Virus record (IMG/VR): IMGVR_UViG_3300008624_000520
Location: 1-64,000 of that record
DNA: 64,000 bases
Direction: 5' to 3' (one strand)
Source: a virus
The notes beneath the pieces are model-generated. The model had not been told where the DNA came from. It saw only the letters and a list, made by a program, of their open reading frames with translations, and did no database searches. The translations under genes were made by a program, and so were the position numbers. This document shows, one piece after another, positions 8,915-60,917 of this stretch (position 1 is the stretch's first letter; each line of letters starts with the position of its first letter).

Positions 8915-10925
8915 AACCTAACCTAAATCGTATGTCGTTGTTATTGTGCTTATAATTAAGGCCGTTAAACCCTATCTTATTACTTCCTACTGACGTGTAA
9001 CTAGACACACCAGCATAGAATCCTTTGTGATGTACGTCTACAAAGAACTCCATGTCTTGTAAATGAAAAGGATCTACTGTGACATTATATCTGCTGCCTA
9101 ATTCCGTAAATCCATCCACCTCTGTTAAATAGTATGCTAGGCCAAAGCGCATTTTGTTCCACAGGTGCTCAGCATATACTTGCCACGTTTCCATGTGTAT
9201 AGTTGCTTGTCCTGTGCCAAAATATACCGTTTGATTGTGCGCTTTTCTATTGTTTCGAGCATACCCAACACCCAGATGAGTATTCCCTAATTCAATATCA
9301 AACCCTAGCATACCGTTGTTCGTTATAATTAAATCGTTATTGCCGTCTAACTGTGCATATCTGAGATTGTTAAATAACAGCTTGTTCATTGATGCAAACT
9401 CTGCATAGCCTGATGGTTTCGTTAATATGTCTTTCGCCATTTGTGCTGGCGGATCTAATACCTGATAAAATGTATTGATAGACGTGTCGCCGTCATATAC
9501 CTGATGTCTACCTATAAAATCGTAGAAGTATTTGCCGTCTATCTCGACAGGGTAGAACGTTCTTTCACTACCTACTCCTGGAAAATCACTGTATATCTCA
9601 TACTCGTTATCAGTATTGATTAGTACATAGGTGCCGTCAACGACATCTACAATATCAGTATCACCGTCGTGATCGAAATCTAATAGCATCATCTCGCCGT
9701 CGCCATGGCCTGATTCAAATGTCTTTGCCTCTGTAAATGTGCCGTCTCCCATATTTTGAAAGAACTGTATAGCTCTACCATCATAATAGGGCTCGTGTGT
9801 TGTGCTTGCTAGCAGTATATCTAAATAGCCGTCGCCGTTGAAATCAAATACTTCCATGTCGTTAGCATTGCCATTAGTGCCAAAATAGTTAGGAGGAAGG
9901 TCAACTCTAAAATCTCTCCAGTCGTTGTTGCCGTTGTTATAAAATACAGCTCCTGCGCTATCTATAGGATTAAACCATCCTACTGCTACATCTCCATGGC
10001 CGTCGTTGTTAAAATCTCCTATTGCTGCTGTTGTTGCCCACAAGCTAGGCTCATAATTGAAATTGTGGTTAGGTGTAAATACTCCATGGCCGTCGTTAAA
10101 CATCATCGTCCAGCCCACACTCTCGTCTGTGTATATGCCAAATATATCTAAATCGCCATCGTTATCTACATCACCAGCATAATTGTCGTGTGTCCAAGCG
10201 CCTGATAAGTCTCCTGGTTGTTCGTGATATTGTGTAAATTGGAATTCAGGTAATTGGAAACTCTTGTTCTCATGGCCGTTGTCACCACTAAGATATAGTA
10301 TAGATGTCTTATAAAAATCGTCTATGCCGTCGCCGTTAAAATCTGCTACTATAGGTCGTTGCAAATGAGATACAAAACCACATGTATGATAAGGATCTGT
10401 CTTATAATCTAAATCACCATAGCCTATACACCCCATCTTCTCAGGTGTAAAAGATCCATTACCGTCGTTATAAAAGGCCCACAAATAGCTGTTGGGTTGA
10501 TCATCTCTAGAGCCTTCCCATCTCTCTTCGTAAAAGAAGTCTTCCCACCCGTCGCCATTTAAGTCTGCTTTAATTATTTGTCCATCCTGATCCCAGGGCT
10601 GTGATGGTAAATACTCATCATCGTTCCTGTGTTGTCCGTCGTGCAAACCTTCTGCTGTTATTTGAAAGAAACCATAATCCTCTATCTTATATTTGTCTGT
10701 TCTATCAAAATTCTCAGGTGGTTGATACTCTCCTCTACTGTATATTACTGTCGTTTCCACGCCTTCTAAATCGTAGACATGCTTTTCTTCTATTGGTGCA
10801 GGTGATACAGCTGATACCACTACCACACCACTATAAGGCATAGAGGGCTGTGACATCTCACTTGTTGACTTGCATCCGTATATAAAGAATCCACAAATAA
10901 CTATCAGTATAAATTTAAACTGCAT
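8898..10925 (-). CDS. Large FG-GAP/VCBS-repeat lipoprotein
   Basis: The 675-residue protein begins with a lipoprotein signal peptide (hydrophobic 4-16, lipobox FIYGC, Cys18). At least six Ca-binding FG-GAP/VCBS motifs of the type DxNxDGxxD follow between about residues 110 and 420, for example DFNGDGIDDF and DVDNDGDLDI, implying a beta-propeller. The last 130 residues alternate in a beta-strand pattern, rich in Tyr and Gly, and end in Phe, like an outer-membrane barrel. A phage-encoded outer-membrane lipoprotein could alter the infected cell surface, exclude other phages, or be carried in the virion. It overlaps the upstream gene by 11 bases. Family assignment is firm; function is inference. 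Confidence 0.75.
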   Translation of the reverse strand: MQFKFILIVICGFFIYGCKSTSEMSQPSMPYSGVVVVSAVSPAPIEEKHVYDLEGVETTVIYSRGEYQPPENFDRTDKYKIEDYGFFQITAEGLHDGQHRNDDEYLPSQPWDQDGQIIKADLNGDGWEDFFYEERWEGSRDDQPNSYLWAFYNDGNGSFTPEKMGCIGYGDLDYKTDPYHTCGFVSHLQRPIVADFNGDGIDDFYKTSILYLSGDNGHENKSFQLPEFQFTQYHEQPGDLSGAWTHDNYAGDVDNDGDLDIFGIYTDESVGWTMMFNDGHGVFTPNHNFNYEPSLWATTAAIGDFNNDGHGDVAVGWFNPIDSAGAVFYNNGNNDWRDFRVDLPPNYFGTNGNANDMEVFDFNGDGYLDILLASTTHEPYYDGRAIQFFQNMGDGTFTEAKTFESGHGDGEMMLLDFDHDGDTDIVDVVDGTYVLINTDNEYEIYSDFPGVGSERTFYPVEIDGKYFYDFIGRHQVYDGDTSINTFYQVLDPPAQMAKDILTKPSGYAEFASMNKLLFNNLRYAQLDGNNDLIITNNGMLGFDIELGNTHLGVGYARNNRKAHNQTVYFGTGQATIHMETWQVYAEHLWNKMRFGLAYYLTEVDGFTELGSRYNVTVDPFHLQDMEFFVDVHHKGFYAGVSSYTSVGSNKIGFNGLNYKHNNNDIRFRLGYEKTF

Positions 10926-11472
10926 CTAATTGGCCTCTCATAATTAAATCTCTCCATTGAGGAATTGTTAGTTCCATCTTGTTCTCTCTAATATATTCGT
11001 ATGCTGTTATCTCATCTGTAATATCAAACATCTGTCCTGCTGCCATTGCTGGTGGCGGTGGTGGTTGATAGTCAAGCAAATAACCAGATATCTTTTCAAA
11101 TGGTATATAAAAATCAAAGTCTGCCTTATAAACTGTCATCAAATGTGGCTGCAAATGTGTGCTATAAAACATATTATCTCTCTTTTGATTTATGCTGTGT
11201 AAGCTCATGCCATGTAAATATGCTGCGTGTTTGTGCTGTTCCATAGGATCTCTCAATACCAACACATGTTCCTTCTTTTCAAATTGATTTGTTAGCGCTC
11301 GCCAGTGGAATGGTTTGATAAAGGCCATCGTTGTCCGTGTACCTACATTTACAAAGAAATTCTCAAAACACTGAACACCAATAGGTCCGTGCATGTATAT
11401 CGTCAGGTTTGCTGTCTCTAAATATGTGTTTAGGACTTCTTGATCGTTATATCTCTCAGGCGCTGTCGTCAT
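10915..11472 (-). CDS. Possible sulfotransferase-like protein
   Basis: I chose the ATG at 11472, 8 bases after AAGGA; a TTG two codons earlier is the alternative. The 185-residue protein contains HVLVLRDPMEQHKHAAYLHG, which resembles the RDP segment of sulfotransferases that contacts the PAPS cofactor. The N-terminal phosphate-binding loop is not clear. A Pro run (YQPPPPPAM) lies near residue 137. It overlaps both neighbours. Function is tentative. Confidence 0.45.
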   Translation of the reverse strand: MTTAPERYNDQEVLNTYLETANLTIYMHGPIGVQCFENFFVNVGTRTTMAFIKPFHWRALTNQFEKKEHVLVLRDPMEQHKHAAYLHGMSLHSINQKRDNMFYSTHLQPHLMTVYKADFDFYIPFEKISGYLLDYQPPPPPAMAAGQMFDITDEITAYEYIRENKMELTIPQWRDLIMRGQLDAV

Positions 11473-11704
11473 CCTCAAGGTCCTTTGTCAATGCGTCTAA
11501 TACCAATTTATCATACGTCAATGGATCTAAAAAGTGTATATTCTTTCCGTGAAAGTGTATAAGAACTCTGCCGTTATGTTTTTTAGACAGTTTCTTGCAA
11601 TGCTCTATATACCTATCAATACCTTCTCTTATGCCTATTTTGTATGCTCTCCATGACATACCTATAGCACATATTCCTAATATAATTAAATGTCCTTCAT
11701 TCAT
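11456..11704 (-). CDS. Hypothetical protein with N-terminal hydrophobic segment
   Basis: This 82-residue protein has a short hydrophobic N-terminus (HLIILGICAIGMSW) that may be a membrane anchor, followed by a basic helix and an acidic end (DLEDDDSA). It overlaps the radical SAM gene by 8 bases, so the two are probably co-translated. Family unknown. Confidence 0.6.
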   Translation of the reverse strand: MNEGHLIILGICAIGMSWRAYKIGIREGIDRYIEHCKKLSKKHNGRVLIHFHGKNIHFLDPLTYDKLVLDALTKDLEDDDSA

Positions 11705-13322
11705 CTTTCCACTCCAGTTTCTTTTGCTTATACTCGTTAATTATTTGCTTGTGTAAATCTATCTGGCTCTTGCCTAATGGATCTATCTCATCAAATGTCT
11801 TTTCCATATCCTTTAAACTATATCTACCACCTGTTAAATATCTGTGGTAATAAAATATCCCAGGAGCCAGCTTGCTGGGTAGTACAGGATTAGCTGCTAC
11901 TTCTGAAAATAGTTTCCACGCTTCCCATACATTCATCGTCTCGTGTTGCCAATTGGCCACACCTGTTGAATTCATATAAAACTGCACAACCTCTTTTAAT
12001 TGTTCAGGTATCTCATCATAGTTGACACCCATCTCTTCGTGTGTTTTCTTTGTAAATACTCCTGACGTCCAGGCTGTTCTATCAAATTCACTAGGATTTG
12101 TTGCCATAGCATTTAAGTCTCCATCTGCTACCATTAATGGTGCAAAGCTATAACTATGGCCAGGCATGTTGTCCATAACCCAATCCCTTCCTTCTAAAAA
12201 TGTTTCTCTTGTTTCATAAGGAAGTCCTACGATCATAGATATTGTAGCTCTAAACTTTCCTTTATTGTTAAACCAATCTTGTACTTCTAATAATCCATCT
12301 TTAAGTCTATCTGGGTTCATGCCTTTGCCTACAAACCTAGCTGCTTTGTGATTAAAACTCTCTATGCCATAAAAGTGAGACCATAAACCCATATCCCAAA
12401 TGTCTTCCCACGTATCTGGTTTGGCCACTAATAAGTCTCCTCTTAAATAGCCTGCCAAGTTTACTTCAAAGGGTAATGACCTAACTACGTCTGCTACTTT
12501 CTTAAGTTTCTCAGGGCTATCGTTTATTGTCTCATCTGAGATCGTGTATGTGTTAATACCCCAGCGTTCATAATTATCTGTTAATTCTTCTCTTAAACTA
12601 TCTGCACATCTACTGTGATCTCCCTTCACTCCTAAAACTGTAAATGAACAGAACTTACACTCAAATATGCAACCGCGTCCCATTTCAATAGTTGGTACTT
12701 CATCAGATCTCATAAAGTCTCGATCCTGATACTTCACATGTGCATTAGGAAAAGGCCAAGCTGGATAATCGTGTCTACATTCCACTACCTTGCGTGTTGC
12801 ACCCCAATATTCTCTCTCATGAACGATACAATTATGTGTCTGTCCTGTTATCATCTTTAATAATTCTATAATGCCGTACTCTGCAAAGCCACCCACATAA
12901 TAATCTAATGGGTATCCTAGTGTAGCAGATATGTTTTGTGAGCCTCCAATGAACACTAAATCAGGATATAACGATTTAATATATCTGAGATTCTCTATAA
13001 TCTCTGCTACTTTCTCCTGGTTCTTCTTGCCTGCTCCTCCTAGTGGAAACATAGCAGACAGCCCTACCCAAATTGTGTCTTTCTTTACTCTTGTTTCAAA
13101 CAGCTCTACGAGTTCTTCACGTGACCATGCAGGCCAAAAGTCTATAACCTCTATATCCCATTCGTTCTCTCTTAGCCATGTGGCTATTCTGTGTGCTCCT
13201 GCTGATCGTTTGATGCTTGGCCAAAAGTCTGGCCTATCTTTAGTGTCTTGGTGTACTAATTGATTTCTAGTTTCGCTAGTGTCTTCTCGTTCAAGTATTC
13301 CACCTAGTATAATTCCATGCAT
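11697..13322 (-). CDS. B12-binding-type radical SAM enzyme (copy A)
   Basis: The 541-residue protein has an N-terminal cobalamin-binding-like region (AGAHRIATWLRENEWDIEVIDF at 41-62, then a GLSA and GGSQN alternation). The radical SAM cluster motif is CIFECKFC, with Cys 218, 222 and 225. Such enzymes bind a 4Fe-4S cluster and SAM and often methylate unreactive carbons or modify peptides, lipids or glycans. It is clearly homologous to the protein at 35766-37310 across its length, including GRGCIF, the DHSR segment, and the phrases ISDETIND and YGIESF. The metallopeptidase gene upstream overlaps by 19 bases. Class is firm; substrate unknown. Confidence 0.8.
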   Translation of the reverse strand: MHGIILGGILEREDTSETRNQLVHQDTKDRPDFWPSIKRSAGAHRIATWLRENEWDIEVIDFWPAWSREELVELFETRVKKDTIWVGLSAMFPLGGAGKKNQEKVAEIIENLRYIKSLYPDLVFIGGSQNISATLGYPLDYYVGGFAEYGIIELLKMITGQTHNCIVHEREYWGATRKVVECRHDYPAWPFPNAHVKYQDRDFMRSDEVPTIEMGRGCIFECKFCSFTVLGVKGDHSRCADSLREELTDNYERWGINTYTISDETINDSPEKLKKVADVVRSLPFEVNLAGYLRGDLLVAKPDTWEDIWDMGLWSHFYGIESFNHKAARFVGKGMNPDRLKDGLLEVQDWFNNKGKFRATISMIVGLPYETRETFLEGRDWVMDNMPGHSYSFAPLMVADGDLNAMATNPSEFDRTAWTSGVFTKKTHEEMGVNYDEIPEQLKEVVQFYMNSTGVANWQHETMNVWEAWKLFSEVAANPVLPSKLAPGIFYYHRYLTGGRYSLKDMEKTFDEIDPLGKSQIDLHKQIINEYKQKKLEWKDE

Positions 13323-16762: not shown

Positions 16763-17722
16763 ATGGATAGTGTCTACAAATACGGTTATTGTCATCGCTA
16801 CAGGCCTGGCAAAGGAAATCAACATACAAAAGCAGATGGCACCCCCGAGCCAATGGGTGTGCAACAATGGTCTGATGGATTTTCAACAAGGTGGTGTCCT
16901 TCTGACATTAGGCAAAATTTCGATAATAGGAAAGAGTTAGCAGAGCAACTAGGTTGGTCAGATAACAATGTCAAGTATAGATTTAATCAGTGGGGTTTTA
17001 GACATCAAGGAGATTTTGTAGAGAATAAAAATGCTCTAGTAGCATTAGGTTGTAGCATAACATTTGGTATTGGAGTTAATTATGAACAGACATGGCCTTA
17101 TTTTGTAGCACAAGAGTTAGGACTAGACTGTGTAAATTTAGGCCAACCAGGAACAGGTATTCAAGCATCTTATCGTGCTGCTAAAATGTGGTTGCCTGTT
17201 ATAAAACCTAAAGCTGTAATGTTCTACGTTCCAGATCCTCATAGAATTGAACTCTGGCCTTATCCAGATGATAGAGAGGAAGATAACTACGCAGATTCTG
17301 TAAAATCCATAGGACCTTGGCATAACTCCGGCACTTCCGATAAGAAATGGAGAGACCATTTTGAAATGAGCATGTCAAGTCGTGAAGTCGCTATTAGACG
17401 AGAGGCCTATATGGATGCCATGAGACATATCTGTAAAGAATCTAAGTTCATAGATATACCAAGCACAGAACAAACAGCAGGTAGACCTTCTAAAACGGAC
17501 AATATAAATGATATGATAGTTATTGATAAAATACATAATATTGCTGAAGAGACTAAAGAAAAACTTAATCATACCCTGAGAGAACAGAACCCGAATGCTG
17601 AGTTTACGGCTTGCCTTAATACTGACGAGGCAAGATGGGCAAGGGACATGGTACATCCAGGACCAAGGGTGATGAGAGATAATATAGCTCCAATGTTTAT
17701 AAGGAAATACCGTGAGAGCTAG
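16763..17722 (+). CDS. SGNH/GDSL-type hydrolase (copy A)
   Basis: The 319-residue protein shows SGNH block I as ALGCSITFGIG (Ser near 98), an NLGQPGTG block resembling block II, and a C-terminal DMVHPGPR that supplies the Asp-x-x-His pair. SGNH enzymes remove acyl groups from polysaccharides or lipids. Its start is 2 bases after the previous stop. A second protein with the same blocks is at 37322-38191, next to a B12 radical SAM gene. Likely substrates are acetylated glycans of the host or virion surface, by inference. Confidence 0.7.
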   Translation: MDSVYKYGYCHRYRPGKGNQHTKADGTPEPMGVQQWSDGFSTRWCPSDIRQNFDNRKELAEQLGWSDNNVKYRFNQWGFRHQGDFVENKNALVALGCSITFGIGVNYEQTWPYFVAQELGLDCVNLGQPGTGIQASYRAAKMWLPVIKPKAVMFYVPDPHRIELWPYPDDREEDNYADSVKSIGPWHNSGTSDKKWRDHFEMSMSSREVAIRREAYMDAMRHICKESKFIDIPSTEQTAGRPSKTDNINDMIVIDKIHNIAEETKEKLNHTLREQNPNAEFTACLNTDEARWARDMVHPGPRVMRDNIAPMFIRKYRES

Positions 17723-18242
17723 TCTATTCTTTTTGTTTAATCACGGCGGTGAATTATATATCGTTGACAATAATCATGTACAAGATGTTCCTAAACCTCG
17801 TGATCTAATCAGACGTTTTTCACAAATAGAAGCTATTAGAGAGCATGCGTTACATCTAGGTAGGCCAATAGTAATGGATTCTGCTCGAGATCGTACAAAG
17901 AAACACACCCCAGAAGGAATAGAAAGAATAAGACAAGCGAAACTAGGAGACAATCATCCTAGCAGAATACATGGTGTCTCTCCAGAACATAAGGAAAAGA
18001 TATCTAGGACTATGACAGGGACAAGACACGGCGAGAACAATCCTATGTATGGTAGAACACACTCAAAAGAAACTAGGATTAAAATGTCTGAGGCTTCTTT
18101 TTATAAGGAGAGGCGTCGTTGGGTAGTATCGCCTGAAGGTAAGACAACAACCATACCTATTAGTGAGCCTAGGCCAGAAGGCTGGCAATGGGGCAGGTTC
18201 TATGATCCTTATAAGCCTGATACAGATCCATTCAACGTATAA
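17712..18242 (+). CDS. NUMOD3-motif protein (homing endonuclease-like, no nuclease domain)
   Basis: This 176-residue protein starts at a GTG overlapping the previous gene by 11 bases. Its middle holds NUMOD3-type DNA-binding motifs: GIERIRQAKLGDNHPS, then HKEKISRTMTGTRHGENN, then NPMYGRTHSKETRIKMSEA. These modules normally follow a GIY-YIG or HNH nuclease in phage homing endonucleases. Here no nuclease motif is visible in the 60 residues before them. It may be a remnant of a mobile gene or a DNA-binding protein. It ends convergently, overlapping the next minus-strand gene by 34 bases. Confidence 0.7.
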   Translation: MRASLFFLFNHGGELYIVDNNHVQDVPKPRDLIRRFSQIEAIREHALHLGRPIVMDSARDRTKKHTPEGIERIRQAKLGDNHPSRIHGVSPEHKEKISRTMTGTRHGENNPMYGRTHSKETRIKMSEASFYKERRRWVVSPEGKTTTIPISEPRPEGWQWGRFYDPYKPDTDPFNV

Positions 18243-18706
18243 ACCTTTCCGCTTTCCACTTTATCCAATAAAGCTACTACCTGTTTAGCAGGAGTTTCGT
18301 AATGGCCTTCTATTAAATGTCCTGGATCTACACCAAAGTATATCTCAGGTTTAAGATGTGCATAATAGCGCATAATATGAAGATTCATTGACTTATAAGC
18401 AAAGTATGGAGCATATTCTGGGTGATCTTTAGCACCTATACCACTGCTAAACATCCAACCTACCTTGTTGGCCTTGTTGTTGCTTAGTATGTCTATACAA
18501 ATAAGACAATTCATATGGTAGCTCACTTGATCAAAACCTTCTGGCATAAAATGGTGGTTAAAAAAGATTAGATCATACTCGTTCTGTGTAAAGGTAAATG
18601 TGCTTAGTTCATCTCTTGGTATAACTGTGACATCGTAGGTCTTTGCTAGTTCACTAGACAAACAGGCTCCAAATTTACTACTACCTCCTGTTATCAGCGC
18701 TTTCAT
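18209..18706 (-). CDS. Short-chain dehydrogenase-like protein
   Basis: This 165-residue protein begins with a Rossmann nucleotide-binding motif (MKALITGGSSKFGACLSSEL) and carries the SDR YxxxK pair in YFAYK. It is shorter than typical members (about 250 residues), so the C-terminal substrate region is reduced. It overlaps the radical SAM gene upstream by 26 bases and probably acts in the same pathway. An NAD(P)-dependent sugar or polyol step is plausible. Confidence 0.7.
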   Translation of the reverse strand: MKALITGGSSKFGACLSSELAKTYDVTVIPRDELSTFTFTQNEYDLIFFNHHFMPEGFDQVSYHMNCLICIDILSNNKANKVGWMFSSGIGAKDHPEYAPYFAYKSMNLHIMRYYAHLKPEIYFGVDPGHLIEGHYETPAKQVVALLDKVESGKVYTLNGSVSGL

Positions 18707-19817
18707 ATATCTTTTCCATTATAGGTGTAGGTCCACAAACATCATAACACTCTAATATTCTATTACCTTCCCATCTCTCATAAACAGGACGAAAAGGATC
18801 ACTATCTAATATCTCTTTTAATGACATCTCATTTAGATTATTATGTACATCTTTAAAAACATCTTCCATTTGCCACTGCTGTATTCTACCTACTATCCTG
18901 TTCTTTAAATACTTTTTACTCAAGTGGCCAAAGAAACTACATGGCCAGACAGAGCCATCACAATTAATTCTCAGCTCGTTGCCTCCTCCTAGTGAGTGAT
19001 TAGCAGCACAAGTGATACAGCCTGGTTTATCTTTATATAATGTTTCTACTCTATCCTTATAGTCTGCGTAGTCTAATGTGTCTGTATTAATTAGATTTAT
19101 AAAATCAACAGACCTCTGTGGAATCTCGTTTATATCTCTGCCTGTTGCTGGAAAGATCTCATATTCTATATTATAATCCTTATCCCTAGCAGGCATAGGG
19201 CCTCCTTCAAAGCCATTAGGATTTTTAAATCTTATCTCAAATCCCAACCAGTCTGCCATCTCTTTAGCTTCTTTTAACTGATGTTCGTTGTGTTTAAACT
19301 TTAGAAACTCCCATATACCTGTAGCTCCTGTCTGTGAGTAGGAGTACATGTTATTTCTAACCTTATTCCACTTTACATTCCTTCTGTATATGTGATTAGT
19401 ATCTTCTAGGCCATCTACTGAGAATATAACATATCTGCTGTGGTTCTTTTCAAATAACTCGCCTAAAGATATCCAAAAAGGTGTCGTTTTCATACCACCA
19501 TTGGTATTAATTTGTATAGCGGAGTCAGGTCGTACTTCTGTGATATGTTCGAGAATAGGAAGAAGTTCTGGACATGTGCAAGGGTCACCATAATCTCCTG
19601 CAAATGTCCAGAAGTTTATTTGTTTTATAAAGTCCTTAGGAAAGTGATCCTTGAATCGTTGAAGGGTGTAAGCCTCTTCAACGATATTGGGATTAAGATT
19701 GGGCGAGAAGTTGTTGTACCTAGGACACCAAGGACATATAGAATTACAAAGAGTTGATACTTCTAAATGTACAGCACGGATATTTTCGTATATCCAATGT
19801 TTATTGGGTGAAGTCAA
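18681..19817 (-). CDS. Radical SAM enzyme with C-terminal auxiliary cluster region
   Basis: The 378-residue protein has a CxxxCxxC cluster motif (CNSICPWC, Cys 24, 28, 31). A second Cys-rich region follows (CITCAANHS, then DGSVWPCSFFGHL), like the SPASM/twitch extension that holds additional Fe-S clusters in peptide- or sugar-modifying enzymes. The only in-frame start is a TTG overlapping the preceding gene. It is unrelated in detail to the two B12-type copies. It is followed by an overlapping SDR gene, a pairing that suggests a small modification pathway. Confidence 0.75.
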   Translation of the reverse strand: MTSPNKHWIYENIRAVHLEVSTLCNSICPWCPRYNNFSPNLNPNIVEEAYTLQRFKDHFPKDFIKQINFWTFAGDYGDPCTCPELLPILEHITEVRPDSAIQINTNGGMKTTPFWISLGELFEKNHSRYVIFSVDGLEDTNHIYRRNVKWNKVRNNMYSYSQTGATGIWEFLKFKHNEHQLKEAKEMADWLGFEIRFKNPNGFEGGPMPARDKDYNIEYEIFPATGRDINEIPQRSVDFINLINTDTLDYADYKDRVETLYKDKPGCITCAANHSLGGGNELRINCDGSVWPCSFFGHLSKKYLKNRIVGRIQQWQMEDVFKDVHNNLNEMSLKEILDSDPFRPVYERWEGNRILECYDVCGPTPIMEKIYESADNRR

Positions 19818-33766: not shown

Positions 33767-35725
33767 CTATTCTACGTGTTTTTTAAAATTGTCATGTGAT
33801 GCATGAGCGTGATCTTGCATCTTTAGTTTATCTGCCGGCTTGTGCTTCATATATCTATCTAAAAATTTATGTGCATGTGCCGAACTCACTTTATGAGTCT
33901 TTCCGTCTTTAAACTTGACTCCATCGTGCTTATCACCTAATGATACTGCCTTTCTCATTTGAGCGACAATATGTTCTGGGCCTTTATTCTCAGAACCATC
34001 ATGTTTACTTTTTCCAGGCTTTGGGTCCTTTTTAACAGGAGCCATTCCTCTACCCGAATCTTGTTTAATATCTCTTAAGGCATCCTGTTTGGCGCCTTCT
34101 TGGACATCGTTATATAATCTGTCTGTTTCCTTTTGAAGTTCTACATTAGGATCTATTACTAAAGGATCAGGACTTAATACGTCTCTAACTGTTTTGTGAA
34201 CATCTCTAATCGCCTGATTAGGTGTCTTAGGCAATGGATTTTCCTCTTCGCCATCTGTTTCTGTTTCTTCTCTTGTGTATGTAGTCTTTCCGCCGTATCC
34301 TGTAACTTTGCCGTCTTTGTTTTTAGAAACAAATCGTTGGCTAGATTTGACTTTAAGCCCCATACTCTTTTCCATAGACTTGACTGCTTTTGAAGCGTCT
34401 TTTAATTTAACTGCTCCACCAATTCCACCTTCTTCTAACTCGGATTCTTTTAGTTTAAGTTTTTTCTCTGCTCTTTCCAAATTCTTCGTATCTTTAGGCC
34501 ATTGAACATTGGCATTGCCAATTCTTTCTTGTTTAGCCTTCTTATAACTCTTTAAAGTCTTTGGTGAAAGTTCAGTCAAATCCTGTTCTTTAACTACCTT
34601 CTTTTTCTTAGCATAAGAAATAGTTTTCTTACTAGCTGCTTGTTTAGACAACCAGTTAGGATCTTTTCTCTTTGCTCTACCTTCACTGCTGTCATCAAAG
34701 TATCCATGACCTAAAGCATAATCTTTAAGTCTACCTTCTTCTAAAGGATGTTCTAATTCTTCGTTGGCATGTTTTAGATGTTTCTGAGCTTCCGGATGAT
34801 CTGATAGGCCTTTCTTAACCTTTTCCATTGCTTTGGCTGCTCCGGAATAATTACCACCTTTGTATCTCTTATCAAAAGCTATACCCTTTGCCATCTTAAG
34901 ATGTTTTTTGGTTATTGTTTCATCTAAATCGTTAAAAAATTCTTTTTTCTCTTCTTGAGGAATATCTCTGATGTTCTCGACGCCTTTATCTTCTAATGAC
35001 TTATTAAGGTGCTCTTTGTAAGCCGCGTTAAACGCTAAAATATCTTTGGTTATTTCAGACTCTCTTACACTTGACTTCTCTTTTTCTTTTCTCAGAGACT
35101 TAGGTAGGTCTGATAAATCACGTTTCCTACGTTTAAATTTCTTATCAATTAAACCTTCTCCAAGTTTTGGCCTCTTGTCTGTTCCTTTAGTCTCTTCTAC
35201 ATCAGGTTTGCCTGACTGTTTAGGACCATCGGTAATTTCTGGGACTACTGAACCGCCTTGTTTAGGTGACTCTTTATCTCCCTCATGTTTGTCTGCTGGG
35301 CGATTAGCGCCTCTTGCATGTTCTTCTTTCATGTCTTCTTCCTCTGCATTAGATTGGCCGAGTCCATTTGTGTCTTTAAGTTTTTTGCCAGAAGCTTTCT
35401 TTTTGACCTTCTTGTCTCTTTTAGCTTCTTGCTCATCTTTGTTGCCATCATATATGATGACATCTTCTTCACTTATCACGCCTGTTTCCTCGGTCTGATA
35501 TTTAGTCTTTTGAGTGTGTAACCTAGCTCTATTATATGTAATGTCGTCTCCAAATTGAAACCCCATCATTGAATCGAGCAACTGTCTCAAAGCTTGTCTT
35601 TCATAAGGTGTTAAAACCTTACCCATTTTAATACTCGCCAAAGCTCTGTGTAATATGGGTAACTGTCTAGCTGGCATCATGCCTTGCCTAATCAGTCTAT
35701 CTAGTCTTTGATTAATACTTTCCAC
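33767..35725 (-). CDS. Large charged virion protein, 652 residues
   Basis: The start is a GTG preceded by AGAGGAAAA and a late promoter at 35747. The N-terminal 75 residues are ordered (INQRLDRLIRQGMMPARQLP). A very long Lys/Glu/Asp-rich low-complexity region follows, then a His-rich C-terminal module (HKVSSAHAHKFLDRYMKHKP). An ELSPKTLKSYKKA motif in the middle recurs as ELSPATLKRYTHK in the protein at 40121-41212, hinting at a shared module. A head-internal or scaffold-like structural role is plausible. Confidence 0.65.
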   Translation of the reverse strand: MESINQRLDRLIRQGMMPARQLPILHRALASIKMGKVLTPYERQALRQLLDSMMGFQFGDDITYNRARLHTQKTKYQTEETGVISEEDVIIYDGNKDEQEAKRDKKVKKKASGKKLKDTNGLGQSNAEEEDMKEEHARGANRPADKHEGDKESPKQGGSVVPEITDGPKQSGKPDVEETKGTDKRPKLGEGLIDKKFKRRKRDLSDLPKSLRKEKEKSSVRESEITKDILAFNAAYKEHLNKSLEDKGVENIRDIPQEEKKEFFNDLDETITKKHLKMAKGIAFDKRYKGGNYSGAAKAMEKVKKGLSDHPEAQKHLKHANEELEHPLEEGRLKDYALGHGYFDDSSEGRAKRKDPNWLSKQAASKKTISYAKKKKVVKEQDLTELSPKTLKSYKKAKQERIGNANVQWPKDTKNLERAEKKLKLKESELEEGGIGGAVKLKDASKAVKSMEKSMGLKVKSSQRFVSKNKDGKVTGYGGKTTYTREETETDGEEENPLPKTPNQAIRDVHKTVRDVLSPDPLVIDPNVELQKETDRLYNDVQEGAKQDALRDIKQDSGRGMAPVKKDPKPGKSKHDGSENKGPEHIVAQMRKAVSLGDKHDGVKFKDGKTHKVSSAHAHKFLDRYMKHKPADKLKMQDHAHASHDNFKKHVE

Positions 35726-35746: not shown

Positions 35747-35754
35747 TATTTATA
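35747..35754 (-). promoter_or_regulatory. T4-type late promoter (TATAAATA)
   Basis: Perfect octamer 21 bases before the GTG start of the 652-residue structural gene. Confidence 0.65.
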
Positions 35755-35765
35755 CATTCCGGCCA

Positions 35766-37310
35766 CTAGATAGCCAATTTCTTTTGTTTATACGTTTCTA
35801 TAAAGTTCTTTGCATATTCACTTGGTATTGGTAACTCGCTTTGTAGTTTGGACATATCTTCCCATTTATATTGTGGATCTATTAACCAATTATGATAGCC
35901 AAATGGCAATGGTGGCTGATCAGTTCCCGTTGTGTACCACTCATGTTCCAAAAAGTTTATTACTTCATACAAATCTAGAGTATCTGATTTCCAGTTCATA
36001 AAAGATACTTCTTCCTGGAATGTGCTTTCTTCTGTTTTATATACAGTTTTATTAGGATTTTCTTCTCTTTTCTTAAGAGCTTCATACATTTTGCCATATC
36101 TTTTTTGAGGACCATCTTTCCATGTTCTATTGCCTATAATAGTTTCTGTAAATCCGTATTTTGCTGGGTCTTTTGAAAATCTGCTTTGTTCATCGTATGG
36201 TCTTGGGTCACTAGGTATCCACAAAGGATTGATTAAAGCAGTTTGGCCTTGCCAATTATTTTCTAACCATCTTTTTGTTTCCCTTAGAGTATCTAAAGTT
36301 TCATATGGTAAACCAGCAATTAAATTTATATGTCCCTGAAAAAATCCTTGCTGCTTAGCCCAATGTTTGTAATTTAAAAGACCATCTTGTAGTTTAACAG
36401 TTTCCATGCCCTTTCCTACCGACTTTCCTGAAGGTCTATGGAAAGATTCAATGCCATAGAATTGAGAATTTAATCCTAAATCATGTATCATTTGCCAGTC
36501 ATCTGGTTTAGAAACTAATAAATCTCCTCGAATATAACCTGCCATATTAGGTTTAAAGGGTAGTTTTTTAATTTGATTAGCATATCTGTATAGCTTTTCT
36601 GTGTAATCGTTTACTGTTTCGTCTGCTATTGAGTAGTTAGTTACACCCCATTTTTCATAATTTGTAAGTAATTCATTATATAAATTGTCCTCTGCTCTGC
36701 TGTGATCTTCTTTAATTCCTCTATGGGTTAGTGTACAGAAGTGGCAATTAAATATACAACCACGGCCAAACTCTACTGTAAGGACCTCCTGTGGCTGGAT
36801 ATGATCCCTATCTTCGTAATAAGTAGATAAGTCTTTTAATTGTGCTGCAGGATAATCATGTGTTGCATCTATACGACGGTAAGGATGTCCATTAAGCCAC
36901 ATGTGATCTGAATACTTTGGATTGCCTTTAAGAATAGCAGTTATGGCCAATTCTCCGTAACCGTGTACCACATAATCAATTGGTAATCCTTCTACATTAT
37001 ATAATGATTGAGAGCCTGCTACGATTAAAACGTCAGGATATTCTTTTTTAAACCAGGGTACAAATTTATATAGATGTTTAAATCTAATTGAGAATGTAGC
37101 GCTTAGGCCTAAGAATTTTGTTTTGTTTGTTACTCGTTGGCGGGAGAACTCTTTTAACTCATCTAGAGTCCAAGAGTTTACAAAGTCTAGAACTTCTATA
37201 TCCCAACCTTCTCGTCTTAAGTGTGTTGCTATTTTGTGAGCTCCTGGAGCTCTTTTGATTGAATCATAATAATAGTCAACCACACCACCCATAATAATAC
37301 CGTGGTTCAT
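35766..37310 (-). CDS. B12-binding-type radical SAM enzyme (copy B)
   Basis: The 514-residue protein matches copy A at 11697-13322 from end to end. Shared elements include the N-terminal GAHKIATHLRREGWDIEVLDF, the cluster motif CIFNCHFC (Cys 185, 189, 192), EDHSRAEDNL, and YIRGDLLVSKPDDW followed by GLNSQFYGIESF. It lies directly downstream of an SGNH hydrolase gene (12-base gap) in the middle of the virion structural block, so it is likely expressed late. A carbon-centred modification of a virion component or surface glycan is possible; the substrate is unknown. Confidence 0.8.
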   Translation of the reverse strand: MNHGIIMGGVVDYYYDSIKRAPGAHKIATHLRREGWDIEVLDFVNSWTLDELKEFSRQRVTNKTKFLGLSATFSIRFKHLYKFVPWFKKEYPDVLIVAGSQSLYNVEGLPIDYVVHGYGELAITAILKGNPKYSDHMWLNGHPYRRIDATHDYPAAQLKDLSTYYEDRDHIQPQEVLTVEFGRGCIFNCHFCTLTHRGIKEDHSRAEDNLYNELLTNYEKWGVTNYSIADETVNDYTEKLYRYANQIKKLPFKPNMAGYIRGDLLVSKPDDWQMIHDLGLNSQFYGIESFHRPSGKSVGKGMETVKLQDGLLNYKHWAKQQGFFQGHINLIAGLPYETLDTLRETKRWLENNWQGQTALINPLWIPSDPRPYDEQSRFSKDPAKYGFTETIIGNRTWKDGPQKRYGKMYEALKKREENPNKTVYKTEESTFQEEVSFMNWKSDTLDLYEVINFLEHEWYTTGTDQPPLPFGYHNWLIDPQYKWEDMSKLQSELPIPSEYAKNFIETYKQKKLAI

Positions 37311-37321
37311 ATTGTTATTTA

Positions 37322-38191
37322 TTACACTTTTAGAAAACTATATATCATGTCGGCATAATCGTCATGTGAGTTCTGGCCAGGGTGGGCATTGTCCATAGGG
37401 GCTCTGTCATGCCATTCCCATCTAGGTAATGATACATCAGGATAATCTTTCAGGAGGCCAAATGATACATCTCTTGCATAACCACCCATTGCCAATTTTA
37501 TTTTCTTTTGTCTAGCTATTCTTGCTATGTTATCTACATGTTTCCATAAAAATAATTGTAATGGCACTCCTTCCTTACCTGCTTTAATTTCATCATTTAG
37601 TTCGTCGTATTGTTTCTCATCAAAATTACAAAGTAACTGAACCCACTCCTTACTGTGCGGAACGATATTTGTTAGTGCTCCTAATACCTTAAACTGCTGA
37701 TCTCTAAAAGATAATAATTTAATCTCAGGGAATGAAACTATTGCTATATCAATATCCATTAAATGAGTTACTAATTGGAATTTCTTGTGTACGACTAACA
37801 TGTTGGCTCCTGCCGAACCAAAATTATATACACCGTAATTAGGAGGTAGTTTTTCTTGTAGTCTCTTAGGAAAACTATACTCTACACCCGCTCCCATAAC
37901 ATCACTAGAGCCAAAGCATCCTACCTTAATCTTTCTTTCTAAAGGAAAATCATCTCTATGATTGTATTTGTTAATTTGATAATTCCAAGGATAATCTTCC
38001 CAACCGTATAATGTAGATGTTTCTACAGGGCCTTTAAAATCTTTTAATATACCATAGGGTGCTAGATCATCTAATGTTTTAAAGTCTTTGAAATTTTTTG
38101 CTATAAATTGTTCACTAGCGTAGTTGTTTTTCAGCGAGTCTTGAGATAAAACCTTCTTCAACCATCCTGAATAAGTCACTTTGTCTGCCAT
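37322..38191 (-). CDS. SGNH/GDSL-type hydrolase (copy B)
   Basis: The 289-residue protein has KVGCFGSSDVMGAGVEYS as block I (catalytic-type Ser), YNFGSAGANM as block II-like, and MDNAHPGQNSHDDYA supplying the terminal Asp-x-x-His. It is comparable with copy A at 16763-17722 but diverged. It is sandwiched between a B12 radical SAM gene and a structural gene, with gaps of 11 and 4 bases, arguing for co-expression late in infection. Confidence 0.7.
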   Translation of the reverse strand: MADKVTYSGWLKKVLSQDSLKNNYASEQFIAKNFKDFKTLDDLAPYGILKDFKGPVETSTLYGWEDYPWNYQINKYNHRDDFPLERKIKVGCFGSSDVMGAGVEYSFPKRLQEKLPPNYGVYNFGSAGANMLVVHKKFQLVTHLMDIDIAIVSFPEIKLLSFRDQQFKVLGALTNIVPHSKEWVQLLCNFDEKQYDELNDEIKAGKEGVPLQLFLWKHVDNIARIARQKKIKLAMGGYARDVSFGLLKDYPDVSLPRWEWHDRAPMDNAHPGQNSHDDYADMIYSFLKV

Positions 38192-38195: not shown

Positions 38196-40094
38196 TTAGC
38201 CTACTGAGAAACTGAACGCTTTATATGCTTTTGATTTTCCTTTGAGTGTTGGTCCACCAGTACCAATACGTGATTTGAATTTTTTAGGTTTAGGTGCTTT
38301 GTACTTGCCTGGTTTTTTAATTGCGTATTTTTTAGCTTTTTTTCCAGAAGCACCACGTATTGGTTTGGCTGCTTTAAATTTCTTACTGACTGTTGCACTT
38401 CTTTTGCCTCTATTTTTCATACGATTAATTTCGTTCTTTCTTAACTGAGGCATTAATTTAACAGAAATACGACTAACTAACGGCTGGAATCTTTTTATCA
38501 TTCTTTCTAAACGTGCTTTCTCTGCTGGTGGTAGAGTGGATCTGTCCCTGCCTCTTAATAGACGTTTATAAACCATAAGTCTTGCACCACGTGTTGCCCT
38601 ACGTTTTAATCTATCTGGAGTAGAGCCACGTCTAAGTGCTATACCACGTGCTACTTTTAATTTTTGTCTATTACGTCTAGCAGCAAAACGTCTTTTCATA
38701 CGTCCTTGTACGGATAATTCTTCCGTAACTGCAATATCATTTAAAGAATCACCATCAAAGTCATCATAAGCTAATTCATCTGGATCATATAATCCCATTT
38801 TAACTTCTTGATCAAATGTTATGTTCTCTGCTTCTTTATCTAATGCTTTAACATCTTCCCAAGTAATTTCTCCACCTTCATATGCTCCTGTAAGGATGCC
38901 ATCTAAGTTTGATTGCCATTGTGCATTTACTGCATTGTCTTCAGGGTATTTTTCTTTGGAGTATTCAGCCTGTAATGGATTTATTTGATCTAAATTAAAC
39001 CCTTTATCTTCTGTTACTTTAACACCCTTCTCATCTTGTGGCTTTCTTGCTTTAATGTTTAAGGGTTTAATGGGATCATTTGCTGGATTGTCTTGTCCTG
39101 GTGTTAGCTTTTTAAAATAATCTCTTCCAATATCTGTGCCCCACTCATGACTGCCAGGACCCATTGCTGCTTTATATTCTGCTGTTTCAAAGATCCAACC
39201 TATCTTACTATTAATAGAATCGCCTGCTGCTAATGCTTTTTGTCCTATAGACCATGCTGGCTTAGGATATCTTTTTAAATTTTTGCCGATCCATTTGCCC
39301 TTAGGCTTATCGGATTTTAACGTGTAGGAACCTATTACGTTAGACTTAGGACTTGAAAAAACAAACGCTCCATCTTTACCGCTGTCTTTTTTCTTAACTT
39401 TTTTAACTGGTTTTTTAATAGGACGACCAGAAGCTGCGTCTTCTCTCTGTATCTGTGGGTGATGACTATCTTGTCCTACTCCCATTGACGGCCCTTTCCT
39501 AATCTTTTTTTTTGTCTTTTTAGCATAATGCTTAGCCATTTGATCTAGCTCTTTATCTGAAGGTCGTTTACTCCAGCTCTTAGGTGGATCGTAGTCTTTA
39601 GGAAATTTAATATCTTCTGCAAACCTAGCTTTTAATGCTGTCCTGGCATGCCTCATTTTCATTTCTTTTTTCCAATCACCCTGAGGGCCTGGCTTCAATC
39701 CCAATTTCTTTCTAATTTTGTTTTTAATTCTTTGTTTACCTTCTGTATATTCAGGCTCAAATTGTTGTGTAAAGGTTCCTTCTGCATAGGCCTTTTTGGT
39801 TGAATGTTTCCCTTTACCCCACATACTATTTTTAACATCTTTCATAGTGGGTGTAGGTTTTCTTGTAGACGATATTACTTTTTTACTTAATATTTTTTTA
39901 CTTAAAGCTTTGGTTGCTTTAATTTGTTTGTGTTTTTGACTCCAGCCCTTGTCTTGTCTTTCTAGATAATCTGCTGTTTTATAAACTGGATATTGTTCGT
40001 TAAAATCTTTCCACGCTGTTGCGTAAGCTATAGATTTTTCTCTTTTGGTGAGTTTGCCGTCCTTGGCGTAACTCTTTTTGATGTGTTTGACCAT
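38196..40094 (-). CDS. Large basic virion protein, 632 residues
   Basis: The protein is strongly basic at both ends. The N-terminus (KDGKLTKREKSIAYATAWKD) and the last 180 residues are Arg/Lys-rich, including MKRRFAARRNRQKLKVARGI, and it ends in AFSFSVG. Similar Arg-rich C-terminal modules occur, from memory, in structural proteins of T4-like marine phages. DNA contact inside the head is a reasonable inference. It is not an enzyme by motif. Confidence 0.65.
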   Translation of the reverse strand: MVKHIKKSYAKDGKLTKREKSIAYATAWKDFNEQYPVYKTADYLERQDKGWSQKHKQIKATKALSKKILSKKVISSTRKPTPTMKDVKNSMWGKGKHSTKKAYAEGTFTQQFEPEYTEGKQRIKNKIRKKLGLKPGPQGDWKKEMKMRHARTALKARFAEDIKFPKDYDPPKSWSKRPSDKELDQMAKHYAKKTKKKIRKGPSMGVGQDSHHPQIQREDAASGRPIKKPVKKVKKKDSGKDGAFVFSSPKSNVIGSYTLKSDKPKGKWIGKNLKRYPKPAWSIGQKALAAGDSINSKIGWIFETAEYKAAMGPGSHEWGTDIGRDYFKKLTPGQDNPANDPIKPLNIKARKPQDEKGVKVTEDKGFNLDQINPLQAEYSKEKYPEDNAVNAQWQSNLDGILTGAYEGGEITWEDVKALDKEAENITFDQEVKMGLYDPDELAYDDFDGDSLNDIAVTEELSVQGRMKRRFAARRNRQKLKVARGIALRRGSTPDRLKRRATRGARLMVYKRLLRGRDRSTLPPAEKARLERMIKRFQPLVSRISVKLMPQLRKNEINRMKNRGKRSATVSKKFKAAKPIRGASGKKAKKYAIKKPGKYKAPKPKKFKSRIGTGGPTLKGKSKAYKAFSFSVG

Positions 40095-41212: not shown

Positions 41213-41600
41213 CCTCTACGCCAATTTGTGCCTTATATTCATTATTTATACTTTTTTCATAGTAGACAATGATAGTTTTCTGCTGTTCTATATATCTTTT
41301 TAATTCTCCCATGTTTAGGGATAGATTTTCATAGTCAGGGACACTAATAGCGAAGAAAACAAAGTCTCCGTAGTCTTTTTCAAATTTTTCTTTAAATTCT
41401 TCGAAGTTATCTGCTGTTACAGCATAAAACTGTACAGGATATAGATTAACACCCTGTGGGTGACCCATTATAGGTATGTTTCTCTCTACAAACTTTGTCT
41501 GTACCTGTACTTCTTTTGGTAATAAACTACAGCTACTCAGGCTTATCAGCAGTGGTAGCAGTAGAATCTTCAAAGTCTTCGAATAACTTTTTTGTTGCAT
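41205..41600 (-). CDS. Outer-membrane spanin-like lipoprotein (o-spanin)
   Basis: The 131-residue protein has a lipoprotein signal peptide (KILLLPLLISLSSC, lipid-anchor Cys24) and a charged periplasmic domain. The gene overlaps the membrane coiled-coil gene upstream by 68 bases in another frame, the classic Rz/Rz1 arrangement in which the two subunits join inner and outer membranes to complete lysis. The C-terminal segment LKRYIEQQKTIIVYYE is, from memory, recurrent in marine phages. Confidence 0.7.
   Translation of the reverse strand: MQQKSYSKTLKILLLPLLISLSSCSLLPKEVQVQTKFVERNIPIMGHPQGVNLYPVQFYAVTADNFEEFKEKFEKDYGDFVFFAISVPDYENLSLNMGELKRYIEQQKTIIVYYEKSINNEYKAQIGVEDD
41243..41250 (-). promoter_or_regulatory. 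T4-type late promoter (TATAAATA)
   Basis: Perfect octamer within the 3' end of the o-spanin gene, 31 bases before the zinc-ribbon structural gene. Confidence 0.6.
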
Positions 41601-58965: not shown

Positions 58966-59638
58966 TATACGCAGAAGAATTTCTAGACACCATTTTATCC
59001 CTAATTTGGTCCTCTATGGGTAAATTTCTGAACCATAAGTTCATTGCGTACTTCTCTCCTGCTAATACCGGTTGTGCTTGATGCATTGTTTTAGGATCAG
59101 GAACCTGTGTTCCTATGACTGTATTGCTAAATACCACACATCTACCTGCTTTGGGTTTGACCCCCTTACCTAACTCTGTAAATACTGTGGCACCACCATC
59201 TGTCACATCATTACAATATAAAAGAACCGTTGCTACTCTATTTCCTTTTGTTCCATGTGGTCCTGTGTGGGCTCGTTCTGTATTTATAGGAAAAGCATCT
59301 AAGTGGGCATCATATTCCTCTCCTAATTCGTAATGTAATGCTTGCACATTTTCTGCTTGTGTGTGATGTAATTGTGTTAATTGAGATGCTCTCAATAAAA
59401 AGTGAACGGCTGTTACGCTTTTCCTATAATCCAACCAGCCCATTTGATTTGTTCTTGCATAATGTTCGTAATCATCACCTTCCTTTCCTTGTGTGACTCT
59501 GCCACGAGTCCATTCAACATTATCTTCCATATCTTTTATCAGTTGCTTACATTCAGGCTTACTCATAAAATTATCCCAAACCATAATCGTTGGGTTGAAT
59601 AAACTAATTACCTGTTTTAATTCTGCCATAAAATCCAC
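58961..59638 (-). CDS. Prolyl-4-hydroxylase-type 2OG-Fe(II) oxygenase
   Basis: The 225-residue protein has YDAHLDAF (His-x-Asp), a long central strand region and a distal MHQAQPVLAGEKYAMNLWF with His and Lys, which is the full 2OG-Fe(II) set. Alternative starts at Met4 are possible. It overlaps the radical SAM gene by 35 bases, so the two are likely coupled. It could hydroxylate a peptide or protein side chain. Confidence 0.8.
   Translation of the reverse strand: MDFMAELKQVISLFNPTIMVWDNFMSKPECKQLIKDMEDNVEWTRGRVTQGKEGDDYEHYARTNQMGWLDYRKSVTAVHFLLRASQLTQLHHTQAENVQALHYELGEEYDAHLDAFPINTERAHTGPHGTKGNRVATVLLYCNDVTDGGATVFTELGKGVKPKAGRCVVFSNTVIGTQVPDPKTMHQAQPVLAGEKYAMNLWFRNLPIEDQIRDKMVSRNSSAYK
58972..58979 (-). 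promoter_or_regulatory. T4-type late promoter (TATAAATA)
   Basis: Perfect octamer at the 3' end of the oxygenase gene. It points to a gene-free segment ending in a terminator, not to a nearby start codon. Confidence 0.55.
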
Positions 59639-60917
59639 CTAGTTCAGGAAAGGTTTTTATAAAATCTGTTCCCCTTCTCCTGTCATGTTCATCTACAAAG
59701 CTAACAAAATCGTTTCTTTGTACTTCTAATTCTTTTCCTTTAAATCTATTTGCTTTAATCCAATCAACTGTTCTTTTAAATTTCATTATTTCATAAGTTT
59801 GATATATATGATCGAAGTCTCGCATAGTTTCTAAACTATTGTCTAACATACTTATAACATTATCGTCTGCAATCCTAGCAGTTAGGTGTAATGGTTCAAC
59901 CATATTAGGCATATCTACTGTAATTAAATCACCATAAGTATTTTTCAATTCTGCTACTTTAAATATGAACTCATCAAAGTTAGGAATAGATAAGAAACAA
60001 AAAGTACACATGATTCCTACAGGTATGCCTGCTGCTAAAACTCTATGTAGGTTCTGTTCAAACCTATTCATTTTTAAACCATTCCTTATATACTCTGCTT
60101 GGTCGCCCCAGCTGTCTATACTGACATAACATTTTTGGCCAGGCAAATCTGCAACTAACCTGATGTATTCTAAAACTCTCCTTTCAGTCACCATCAAATT
60201 TGTGCTTATTTCGAAAGATAAGTTCTCTTTAGGATGCTCTTTAACATACTCCAATAGCTTAAACGTATTATTGTCTAATAAGGGTTCTCCACCCGTCAAG
60301 CGTATAGTATTTAGGTGTGGATATGCCTCAGGCAACCACTTCCAAAACTTCTTAACGTCGGGGTTCTGTGAGGGTGCTAGAATGTCATTTCTTGTTTGAT
60401 ACTTATCGTGATTTGGCTTGCTTTTTAAGTCATATGTTCCATACTTGTCTAACTCCTTTTGCCATGTAGAACTCTTTCCTGCCCCACAATAACTACATGA
60501 CATTTGACATTTATTAGTGAAACTAACCGTCAAATACCTTGGCCATACATCTTCCTCAGGAGGAATTGATGCTGTTTTTGCTATTAAGTCTGGATCGTCT
60601 TTTAAAAACTGTACAGCGAGCATTTGTCTGTCGCTAAAGTTTCCTGTTTTTTCTATATTATAACAATAAGCGTCTTCTGCGGGTTTACCGCCTTCTAACA
60701 TTTCTTGTCTTACTGCTTTGGTATAGGGTGTGTTGTGTAGATCGCTTTGTGAAGGGATTTTATGTTGGGGACAATGATAGCATGAATGCTTTAGTCCTTC
60801 TGCTAAACTCAATTCCAAATAATACCACTTTAATAAACAGAATCCTGGACCTATCTCGTCCAAATCATTTTTTATTTTACTTAACCAGTATTCCTGATTA
60901 TTTAATTTTCTTGCCAA
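59604..60917 (-). CDS. Twitch-type radical SAM enzyme
   Basis: The 437-residue protein has a CQMSCSYCGAG cluster motif near residue 144, GGEPL, a later IDSWGDQAEYIRNGL segment and an N-terminal CYHCP pair. I recall twitch-domain radical SAM proteins with this layout in marine phages. Start is a TTG. It overlaps the RegA gene and the hydroxylase gene, so it may form a two-enzyme module. Substrate unknown; a phage peptide is one possibility. Confidence 0.75.
   Translation of the reverse strand: MARKLNNQEYWLSKIKNDLDEIGPGFCLLKWYYLELSLAEGLKHSCYHCPQHKIPSQSDLHNTPYTKAVRQEMLEGGKPAEDAYCYNIEKTGNFSDRQMLAVQFLKDDPDLIAKTASIPPEEDVWPRYLTVSFTNKCQMSCSYCGAGKSSTWQKELDKYGTYDLKSKPNHDKYQTRNDILAPSQNPDVKKFWKWLPEAYPHLNTIRLTGGEPLLDNNTFKLLEYVKEHPKENLSFEISTNLMVTERRVLEYIRLVADLPGQKCYVSIDSWGDQAEYIRNGLKMNRFEQNLHRVLAAGIPVGIMCTFCFLSIPNFDEFIFKVAELKNTYGDLITVDMPNMVEPLHLTARIADDNVISMLDNSLETMRDFDHIYQTYEIMKFKRTVDWIKANRFKGKELEVQRNDFVSFVDEHDRRRGTDFIKTFPELGGFYGRIKTGN

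Follow-up and report, generated by a model that had tools for sequence, protein, structure and literature searches.

The stretch of DNA analysed here (the window) comprises 64,000 nucleotides (nt), positions 1 to 64,000, of a 72,099-base IMG/VR virus record, IMGVR_UViG_3300008624_000520, from an uncultivated marine phage of T4-like type. On its minus strand lies rSAM-A (35766..37310), coding for a radical S-adenosylmethionine (SAM) enzyme of 514 amino acids (aa) with a vitamin B12-type domain. Directly upstream, on the same strand, stands SGNH-1 (37322..38191), coding for a divergent SGNH-like hydrolase of 289 aa, an optional occupant of its slot. A T4-type late promoter motif, AATAAATA (37316..37323, minus strand), begins 13 nt 5' of the rSAM-A start codon and overlaps the SGNH-1 stop codon. 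A second radical SAM gene of the same type, rSAM-B (11697..13322, minus strand, 541 aa), is located elsewhere in the window. Two T4-like cultured relatives, Pelagibacter phage HTVC008M and Methylophilales phage Melnitz-3, were found via one conserved gene and have a series of homologues in common with the window.

Both rSAM-A and rSAM-B belong to a virus-borne radical SAM family of the cobalamin-domain type. We present here the distribution of this family, the predicted structure of rSAM-A and the genomic slots and promoter motifs of its genes, and we weigh an earlier sequence-only reading in which rSAM-A and SGNH-1 formed a coupled pair.

Sequence and distribution of the enzyme family

The sequence-only reading took rSAM-A and rSAM-B for full-length homologues sharing a cluster motif, which is confirmed. 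A single BLASTP comparison aligns them over 555 columns with 35% identity (E 5e-111), both contain CxxxCxxC, and both exceed the Pfam cut-off for PF04055 in a hidden Markov model search (8.5e-8 for rSAM-A, 6.6e-11 for rSAM-B). The cluster cysteines of rSAM-A, C185, C189 and C192, are invariant across 41 aligned relatives. The PF04055 matches of both proteins, the invariant cysteines and the fold of rSAM-A thus show the cluster motif and barrel that characterize the radical SAM superfamily. The whole record contains four PF04055 matches, three of them over the cut-off, which the sequence-only reading had missed; the profile of the B12-type family takes two of these four genes, rSAM-A and rSAM-B.

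With rSAM-A as sole query, 18 loci were found in IMG/VR. A seven-sequence alignment yielded 105 relatives there, the best 80 of which correspond to 78 loci, and seven distant cellular relatives in GTDB genomes, the strongest at 30% identity and E 2e-46 and the weakest at E 5e-5; the GTDB scan starts from two short peptide patterns, so relatives may be missed. A profile search of the collected loci gave 87 family rows; dereplication at 85% identity left 44, including four from cells. In these scans the family is thus hardly found in cells. Among 50,697 named phage records, a set that may omit records very close to that of the window, tblastn of rSAM-A found nothing at E 1e-5, and tblastn of rSAM-B at a limit of 1 found a single match (E 0.1). 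The family profile has no B12-type match in HTVC008M or Melnitz-3, and a PHROG search of the family enzyme gave no match at 0.1.

In a quick tree with SH-aLRT support (a Shimodaira-Hasegawa-like approximate likelihood ratio test) only, clade A consists of rSAM-A and eight others, and clade B of rSAM-B with the tandem pair of L053 and with L096, followed by L045 and L043; separate from both stand clade C and a number of deeper viral lineages. As the two genes of the window fall into separate clades, they are old paralogues and not products of a recent duplication. Copies were counted in 31 IMG/VR records that were chosen for carrying the family and that include one phage twice (G000 and G001): six have two copies, G002 has three, and G028 has three and a weak fragment. 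Tandem copies of the B12-type family are present at L053:8268-11596 and in G028 (L094), the latter record having 11 radical SAM matches within 39.9 kb. The ratio of nonsynonymous to synonymous substitution rates (dN/dS) was computed for six pairs drawn outside rSAM-B; dS was usable in three of them, which gave 0.09, 0.09 and 0.18, so the gene is maintained by selection.

Predicted structure and chemistry

An AlphaFold2 model of rSAM-A, the only family member folded, was built from the 41-sequence alignment and has a mean predicted local distance difference test score (pLDDT) of 92.6. It shows the architecture of a B12-type radical SAM enzyme, in agreement with the structure-prediction check suggested by the sequence-only reading. 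VIA-align, whose rows are tied when no more than one Z unit apart, matches the model to TsrM (Z 20.8), CysS (20.7), MgmA (20.1), AprD4 (19.9) and OxsB (19.9), and Foldseek also matches; the alignments with TsrM, CysS and OxsB span residues 1 to about 495. rSAM-A shares with TsrM, CysS, TokK, MgmA and OxsB an N-terminal B12-type Rossmann domain, a radical SAM barrel with CxxxCxxC and a C-terminal helical part, but the structural alignments show only 11-15% identity and the model, which contains no ligand, makes rSAM-A a putative cobalamin binder only. Profile matches of the family go to CysS (2.4e-9) and TokK (4.5e-9), the best stretches lying in the B12 domain or running from there into the cluster motif; the structure of TokK was solved with hydroxycobalamin. 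As modelled, rSAM-A is by its architecture one of the B12-binding (class B type) radical SAM enzymes. Its nearest viral models in BFVD, A0A6J5LFT0 and A0A6J5LDK6 from uncultured Caudovirales (template modelling scores 0.79 and 0.75), are only 23% and 19% identical to it and are named just "COG1032 Fe-S oxidoreductase" and "Radical SAM".

AprD4, a radical SAM 1,2-diol dehydratase of the same fold, acts on aminoglycoside precursors and is not known to use cobalamin. Because it fits the rSAM-A model equally well (19.9 is tied with the top Z of 20.8), the fold alone is no proof of B12 binding. The cobalamin-type N-terminus claimed by the sequence-only reading for both proteins is likewise seen in the predicted fold of rSAM-A but not at the level of Pfam, where PF02310 stays below its cut-off in rSAM-A (E 1e-5; 25.8 against 32.1 bits) and has no match in rSAM-B. 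Both results would suit an enzyme of AprD4 type, in which the B12-like domain is structural only and the barrel abstracts hydrogen, for example in dehydration or isomerisation of a sugar. The profile matches of the B12 domain to CysS and to TokK with its bound hydroxycobalamin, however, point away from such an enzyme, and so do the top NCBIfam scores, most of which belong to families with a B12 domain, several of them methylases. Neither argument is decisive, and we regard a B12-independent enzyme as rather unlikely.

No functional family of NCBIfam comes near its cut-off for either protein. The top model for both is the PhpK family P-methyltransferase (TIGR04479), with 45.8 bits for rSAM-A and 44.1 for rSAM-B against a cut-off of 600. 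HpnR (32.4 and 23.2 bits, cut-off 650), HpnJ (25.5 and 23.3, cut-off 577.6) and BchE (25.1 and 11.7, cut-off 481.35) score lower, and all four were rejected as names for these enzymes. Radical methylation is the commonest chemistry among the closest relatives.

Signs of B12 supply were also considered. Weak CobS-like matches occur in 5 of 13 records (61.7-79.9 bits, cut-off 558.55) and are not accepted as such a sign. Two of these weakly CobS-like proteins are located at G002:112413-113132 and G000:67366-68073, and in G002 about 400 bases separate the end of the match from the third family copy downstream of it. An Rfam scan of the window at gathering level found no cobalamin riboswitch and only one tRNA.

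Genomic slots

The rSAM-A gene is situated between the same two neighbours, K5 and K4, in all 20 clade-A contigs (all nine distinct ones at 85% identity). Both neighbours code for large proteins, basic by eye. K5 (38196..40094, minus strand), upstream of the slot in 20/20 contigs, matches two PHROGs of no assigned function, phrog_23027 (1.3e-7) and phrog_30733 (1.4e-6). K4 (33767..35725, minus strand) follows rSAM-A directly downstream, also in 20/20. Ten contigs have a single gene intervening between K5 and the radical SAM gene: an SGNH gene in six of the 20, a 61-aa gene in four. K4 shares a stretch of 59 aa (61%) with a Melnitz protein, where no radical SAM gene is found. Neither neighbour is accepted as a dedicated substrate, as Melnitz and HTVC008M have K4- or K5-like stretches but lack the enzyme, and the other clades occupy other slots.

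The surroundings of rSAM-A further include Rz-like spanins, DUF6267 and cytidylyltransferase-like proteins, a primase, and two genes whose homologues in relatives bear the annotations S-layer-domain protein and ribonucleotide reductase. The gene had been described as lying inside late structural genes; promoter motifs (see below) bear out the word late, but recognisable capsid or tail neighbours, which would make the block structural, are lacking.

Such neighbours are present in clade C, at locus L070. Eighteen clade-C contigs (five distinct) show the order gp4, rSAM, gp2, the names coming from PHROG on one locus and from clustering for the other contigs; gp4 and gp2 are adjacent in T4 itself. 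In six further clade-C contigs of one type (L076-L081) the gene lies between a 2-oxoglutarate-Fe oxygenase and a lysozyme. Other slots of the family are found after a uvsW-type helicase, between regA and a gene that is Hsp20-like by eye, and by gp32. Because the slots vary among lineages, neighbours name no substrate.

Late promoter motifs

PMC2984593 reports NATAAATA as the late promoter of cyanophage S-PM2 and TATAAATA as that of T4. A simple motif test finds no Shine-Dalgarno sequence before the rSAM-A start. The same combination, NATAAATA at exactly -13 of the start (AATAAATA in the window) and no Shine-Dalgarno sequence, is seen in 14 of the 20 clade-A rows (6/9 distinct), and the third family copy of a 170-kb relative has AATAAATA at -13 too. 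By the usual promoter geometry, the start codon of rSAM-A falls at the expected transcription start.

The motif TATAAATA is not unusually abundant in the window (14 sites, 9.9 expected; 13 of 100 shuffles have as many). Its placement is far from random: 9 of the 14 sites are followed within 80 nt by a gene start of their own strand, compared with 1.3 expected, and none of 5,000 random placements gives as many as 9. Two such sites flank the slot on the minus strand, at 35747..35754 before K4 and at 41243..41250 before the gene at 40121-41212; we infer that the latter may also read through K5, SGNH-1 and rSAM-A. Two clade-C loci, L070 and L064, were scanned; in both, the gp4 stop and the rSAM start have a four-base overlap, and TATAAATA lies upstream of gp4 and of gp2. 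Slots and late promoter motifs thus place the gene for late expression in most of clade A and of clade C, and rSAM-A is, on the basis of its sequence context, a probable late gene of a T4-like phage.

A family of metabolic cargo riding in late operons would read differently. It would serve host or phage metabolism (modification of a cofactor, nucleotide or RNA) and not the virion. The wide differences between the slots of separate lineages are in accord with this, as is the wealth of radical SAM and Fe-S carrier genes in T4-like marine phages; 9 of the 31 records have a gene for an A-type carrier, that of the window, a fragment, not being one of them. Against it stand the late promoter motif, the slot that clade A keeps very stable over large divergence, and the fact that most clade-C contigs have the gene inserted between gp4 and gp2. 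On balance we hold a purely metabolic role to be unlikely.

The position of late motifs relative to gene starts deserves a separate comment. In clade-A phages, the first base of NATAAATA is at exactly -13 of the called start at 26 of the 42 motif sites no more than 60 nt upstream of genes, examples from the window being 37316-37323, 44194-44201 and 15321-15328. The same placement accounts for 9 of 24 sites in clade C and 6 of 9 in HTVC008M stretches, and for none of 14 in a T4 late stretch, 5 in P-SSM2 and 2 in a Melnitz stretch, all starts being those of a mechanical open reading frame caller. This pattern suggests that late mRNAs may be leaderless in this phage group, of which a limited literature search gave no evident report.

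SGNH-1 and the proposed partnership

SGNH-1 adjoins rSAM-A directly upstream, as the sequence-only reading noted. Its identity as an SGNH hydrolase is partly supported: Pfam gives no match, but Foldseek relates it to GDSL/TesA enzymes (best E 1.3e-6) on a model of low confidence, with pLDDT 57.6 and values below 50 over the first 83 residues. S96, D267 and H270 are invariant in eight aligned sequences, three near-identical pairs among them; we take the first to be the block I serine and the other two the Asp-x-x-His of block V. For block III, the alignment has no invariant Asn near P155.

A pathway in which rSAM-A and SGNH-1 jointly modify a virion or surface glycan or lipid has several observations in its favour. 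The genes are adjacent in two phage types, in L083 and L118 a family member likewise has an SGNH-like gene at a distance of three genes, and the window contains glycosyltransferase-like and UDP-glucose-dehydrogenase-like genes. An iterated profile finds SGNH-like genes in 20 rows. Some SGNH-like gene, those of the slot and those of other kinds counted together, is present in 6/9 distinct clade-A loci, and an eight-row SGNH profile matches 5/8 clade-A records compared with 4/23 other IMG/VR records. This speaks mildly for the pathway. Part of the profile comes from clade-A phages themselves, one phage is counted twice (as G000 and G001), and many of the records are fragments. The same profile has no match in HTVC008M or Melnitz-3.

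The evidence from the slot itself is contrary. All 20 clade-A contigs carry the radical SAM gene (9/9 distinct), but SGNH-1 occupies the slot in only six (2/9 distinct phages) and is absent from it in the other seven distinct phages. A reciprocal IMG/VR scan with SGNH-1 found five loci, all from the same two phage types. Between these types identity is 38-40% for the SGNH proteins and 73% for the rSAM proteins, and rSAM-A has its own promoter motif. A permutation was run on 37 dereplicated loci (the representatives minus four genome_contigs loci, plus L118, with near-identical contigs dropped). Two of ten SGNH genes adjoin a gene of the B12-type family where 0.68 are expected (p 0.14), and four lie within three genes of one where 2.03 are expected (p 0.12); this concerns nearness only, and its small numbers limit power. 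The co-occurrence anticipated by the sequence-only reading is thus found at genome level in several clade-A phages, but nearness in the slot does not exceed chance. Given the occupancy of the slot, the reciprocal scan, the permutation and the unequal divergence of the two proteins, a dedicated functional unit of SGNH-1 and rSAM-A is not supported, and we consider the joint pathway very unlikely. SGNH-1 is most likely an independent cargo gene without dedicated partner, which entered the same permissive gap. Modification of a glycan or lipid as such is possible.

Proposed role of rSAM-A

We propose that rSAM-A and rSAM-B belong to a cobalamin-domain-type family, that rSAM-A is a late gene performing cobalamin-dependent radical methylation late in infection, and that SGNH-1 is independent cargo; to this proposal as a whole we give about even chances. 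The N-terminal Rossmann domain of rSAM-A resembles that of B12-dependent enzymes and its central barrel contains the [4Fe-4S] cluster motif found in SAM-cleaving enzymes. Its own late promoter motif would bring about late expression. The likeliest chemistry would be a radical, cobalamin-dependent transfer of a methyl group to an unreactive carbon or phosphorus, and the target would be something made late, either a virion protein or a glycan or lipid of the virion or envelope. As a predicted activity, late radical methylation is our best guess for rSAM-A. More specifically, T4-like marine phages might use late B12-dependent radical methylases of their own on virion proteins, such as internal head or connector components; this we think improbable. 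If true, modification of virion proteins by cobalamin radical chemistry would be post-translational and striking.

Several points weigh against the proposal. PF02310 fails to reach its cut-off in rSAM-A and is unmatched in rSAM-B, AprD4 fits the fold as well as B12 enzymes do, and NCBIfam names no function. The late motif is absent in three of the nine distinct clade-A members (L033-L035 with L039, which are one type, L037 and L038), and rSAM-B has none within 60 nt upstream. The variable slots leave the substrate unnamed, and the genome-level counts of SGNH-like genes sit uneasily with mere cargo. Finally, if the host lacks B12, the enzyme could not function as proposed.

Radical SAM genes in T4-like marine phages are not new. 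T4-like environmental genomes, some of them related to HTVC008M, were reported in 2017 to carry as many as 12 radical SAM genes as well as an A-type Fe-S carrier (PMC5332604), radical SAM cassettes were described among pelagimyophages in 2020 (PMC7029224), and a virus with 15 radical SAM enzymes was described from methane-cycling settings in 2022, in a report that mentions a vitamin B12-binding domain in viral radical SAM enzymes (PMC9723712). The accessible parts of the first two reports, in contrast to the present phages, mention no B12-type members, conserved slots or late promoters; the third concerns different viruses with different hosts. Literature searches that covered part of the open papers turned up no account of the family, of its fixed slots or of its late promoters. 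The interest appears to lie in a virus-borne family of B12-type radical SAM enzymes that behaves as a late gene. If this is true, marine phages spend scarce SAM, Fe-S cluster and probably vitamin B12 on a late step of their own cycle, the B12 supply of the ocean would be tied to phage production, and the family might be a source of new radical enzymes. A single gene in a single stable slot with a single late promoter motif offers a testable setting, and the weak case for an SGNH partner is a warning against annotation of two-enzyme pathways.

Other genes of the window and its relatives

The second SGNH gene, SGNH-2 (16763..17722, plus strand, 319 aa; DUF6473 6.3e-4, below cut-off), is a distant relative of SGNH-1 (25% over 101 aa, E 1e-5, single comparison) in a different gene group. 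The sequence-only reading rightly placed it near a different pair of radical SAM and SDR genes. The former (18681..19817, minus strand) codes for a SPASM/twitch-type protein outside the B12-type family, with PF13186 at 4.6e-6, PF04055 and N_Twi_rSAM (5e-11) below their cut-offs and no family-profile match. The latter (18209..18706, minus strand) has a weak SDR match (0.009) and is matched by a homologue in the cassette of L120 (33% over 159 aa). SGNH-2 belongs with these twitch radical SAM and SDR genes, whose relatives build a larger cassette in the 170-kb relative. That cassette, L120 (G002:6000-24000), has an uninterrupted run of five twitch-like radical SAM genes, together with an SDR-like gene and a carbamoyltransferase (phrog_1601), and includes by eye a ferredoxin and an SGNH-like gene as well. 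Another, L122 (G026:20000-38000), has six twitch-like radical SAM genes within about 9 kb and a carbamoyltransferase; ferredoxin and aminotransferase-like genes were seen by eye in L120 and L122. The fourth radical SAM gene of the window (59604..60917, minus strand; PF04055 1.7e-13 at 60003-60527) also lies outside the B12-type family, without family-profile match.

Two small proteins accompany rSAM-B on the minus strand, one of 82 aa (11456..11704) and one of 187 aa (10915..11478, no Pfam match). Their homologues in L053, L096 and L119 lie at most three and at most two genes, respectively, from clade-B rSAM genes. The 187-aa protein and that at 27082-27711, likewise without Pfam match, look by eye like small sulfotransferase-type proteins with an RDP motif. 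The gene at 26442-27095 codes for a PP-loop protein with a QueC-like C-terminal motif (phrog_1550, 2.7e-10), relatives of which adjoin B12-type rSAM genes, or are one gene off, in L098 and L094. The DUF6267 protein at 43037-44188 (PF19782 4e-96) contains KYDGSP, by eye resembling the ligase-type KxDG motif, and begins with MRFTEFLTE, which we take to resemble T4 capsid-targeting N-termini; it is possibly a packaged nucleotidyltransferase.

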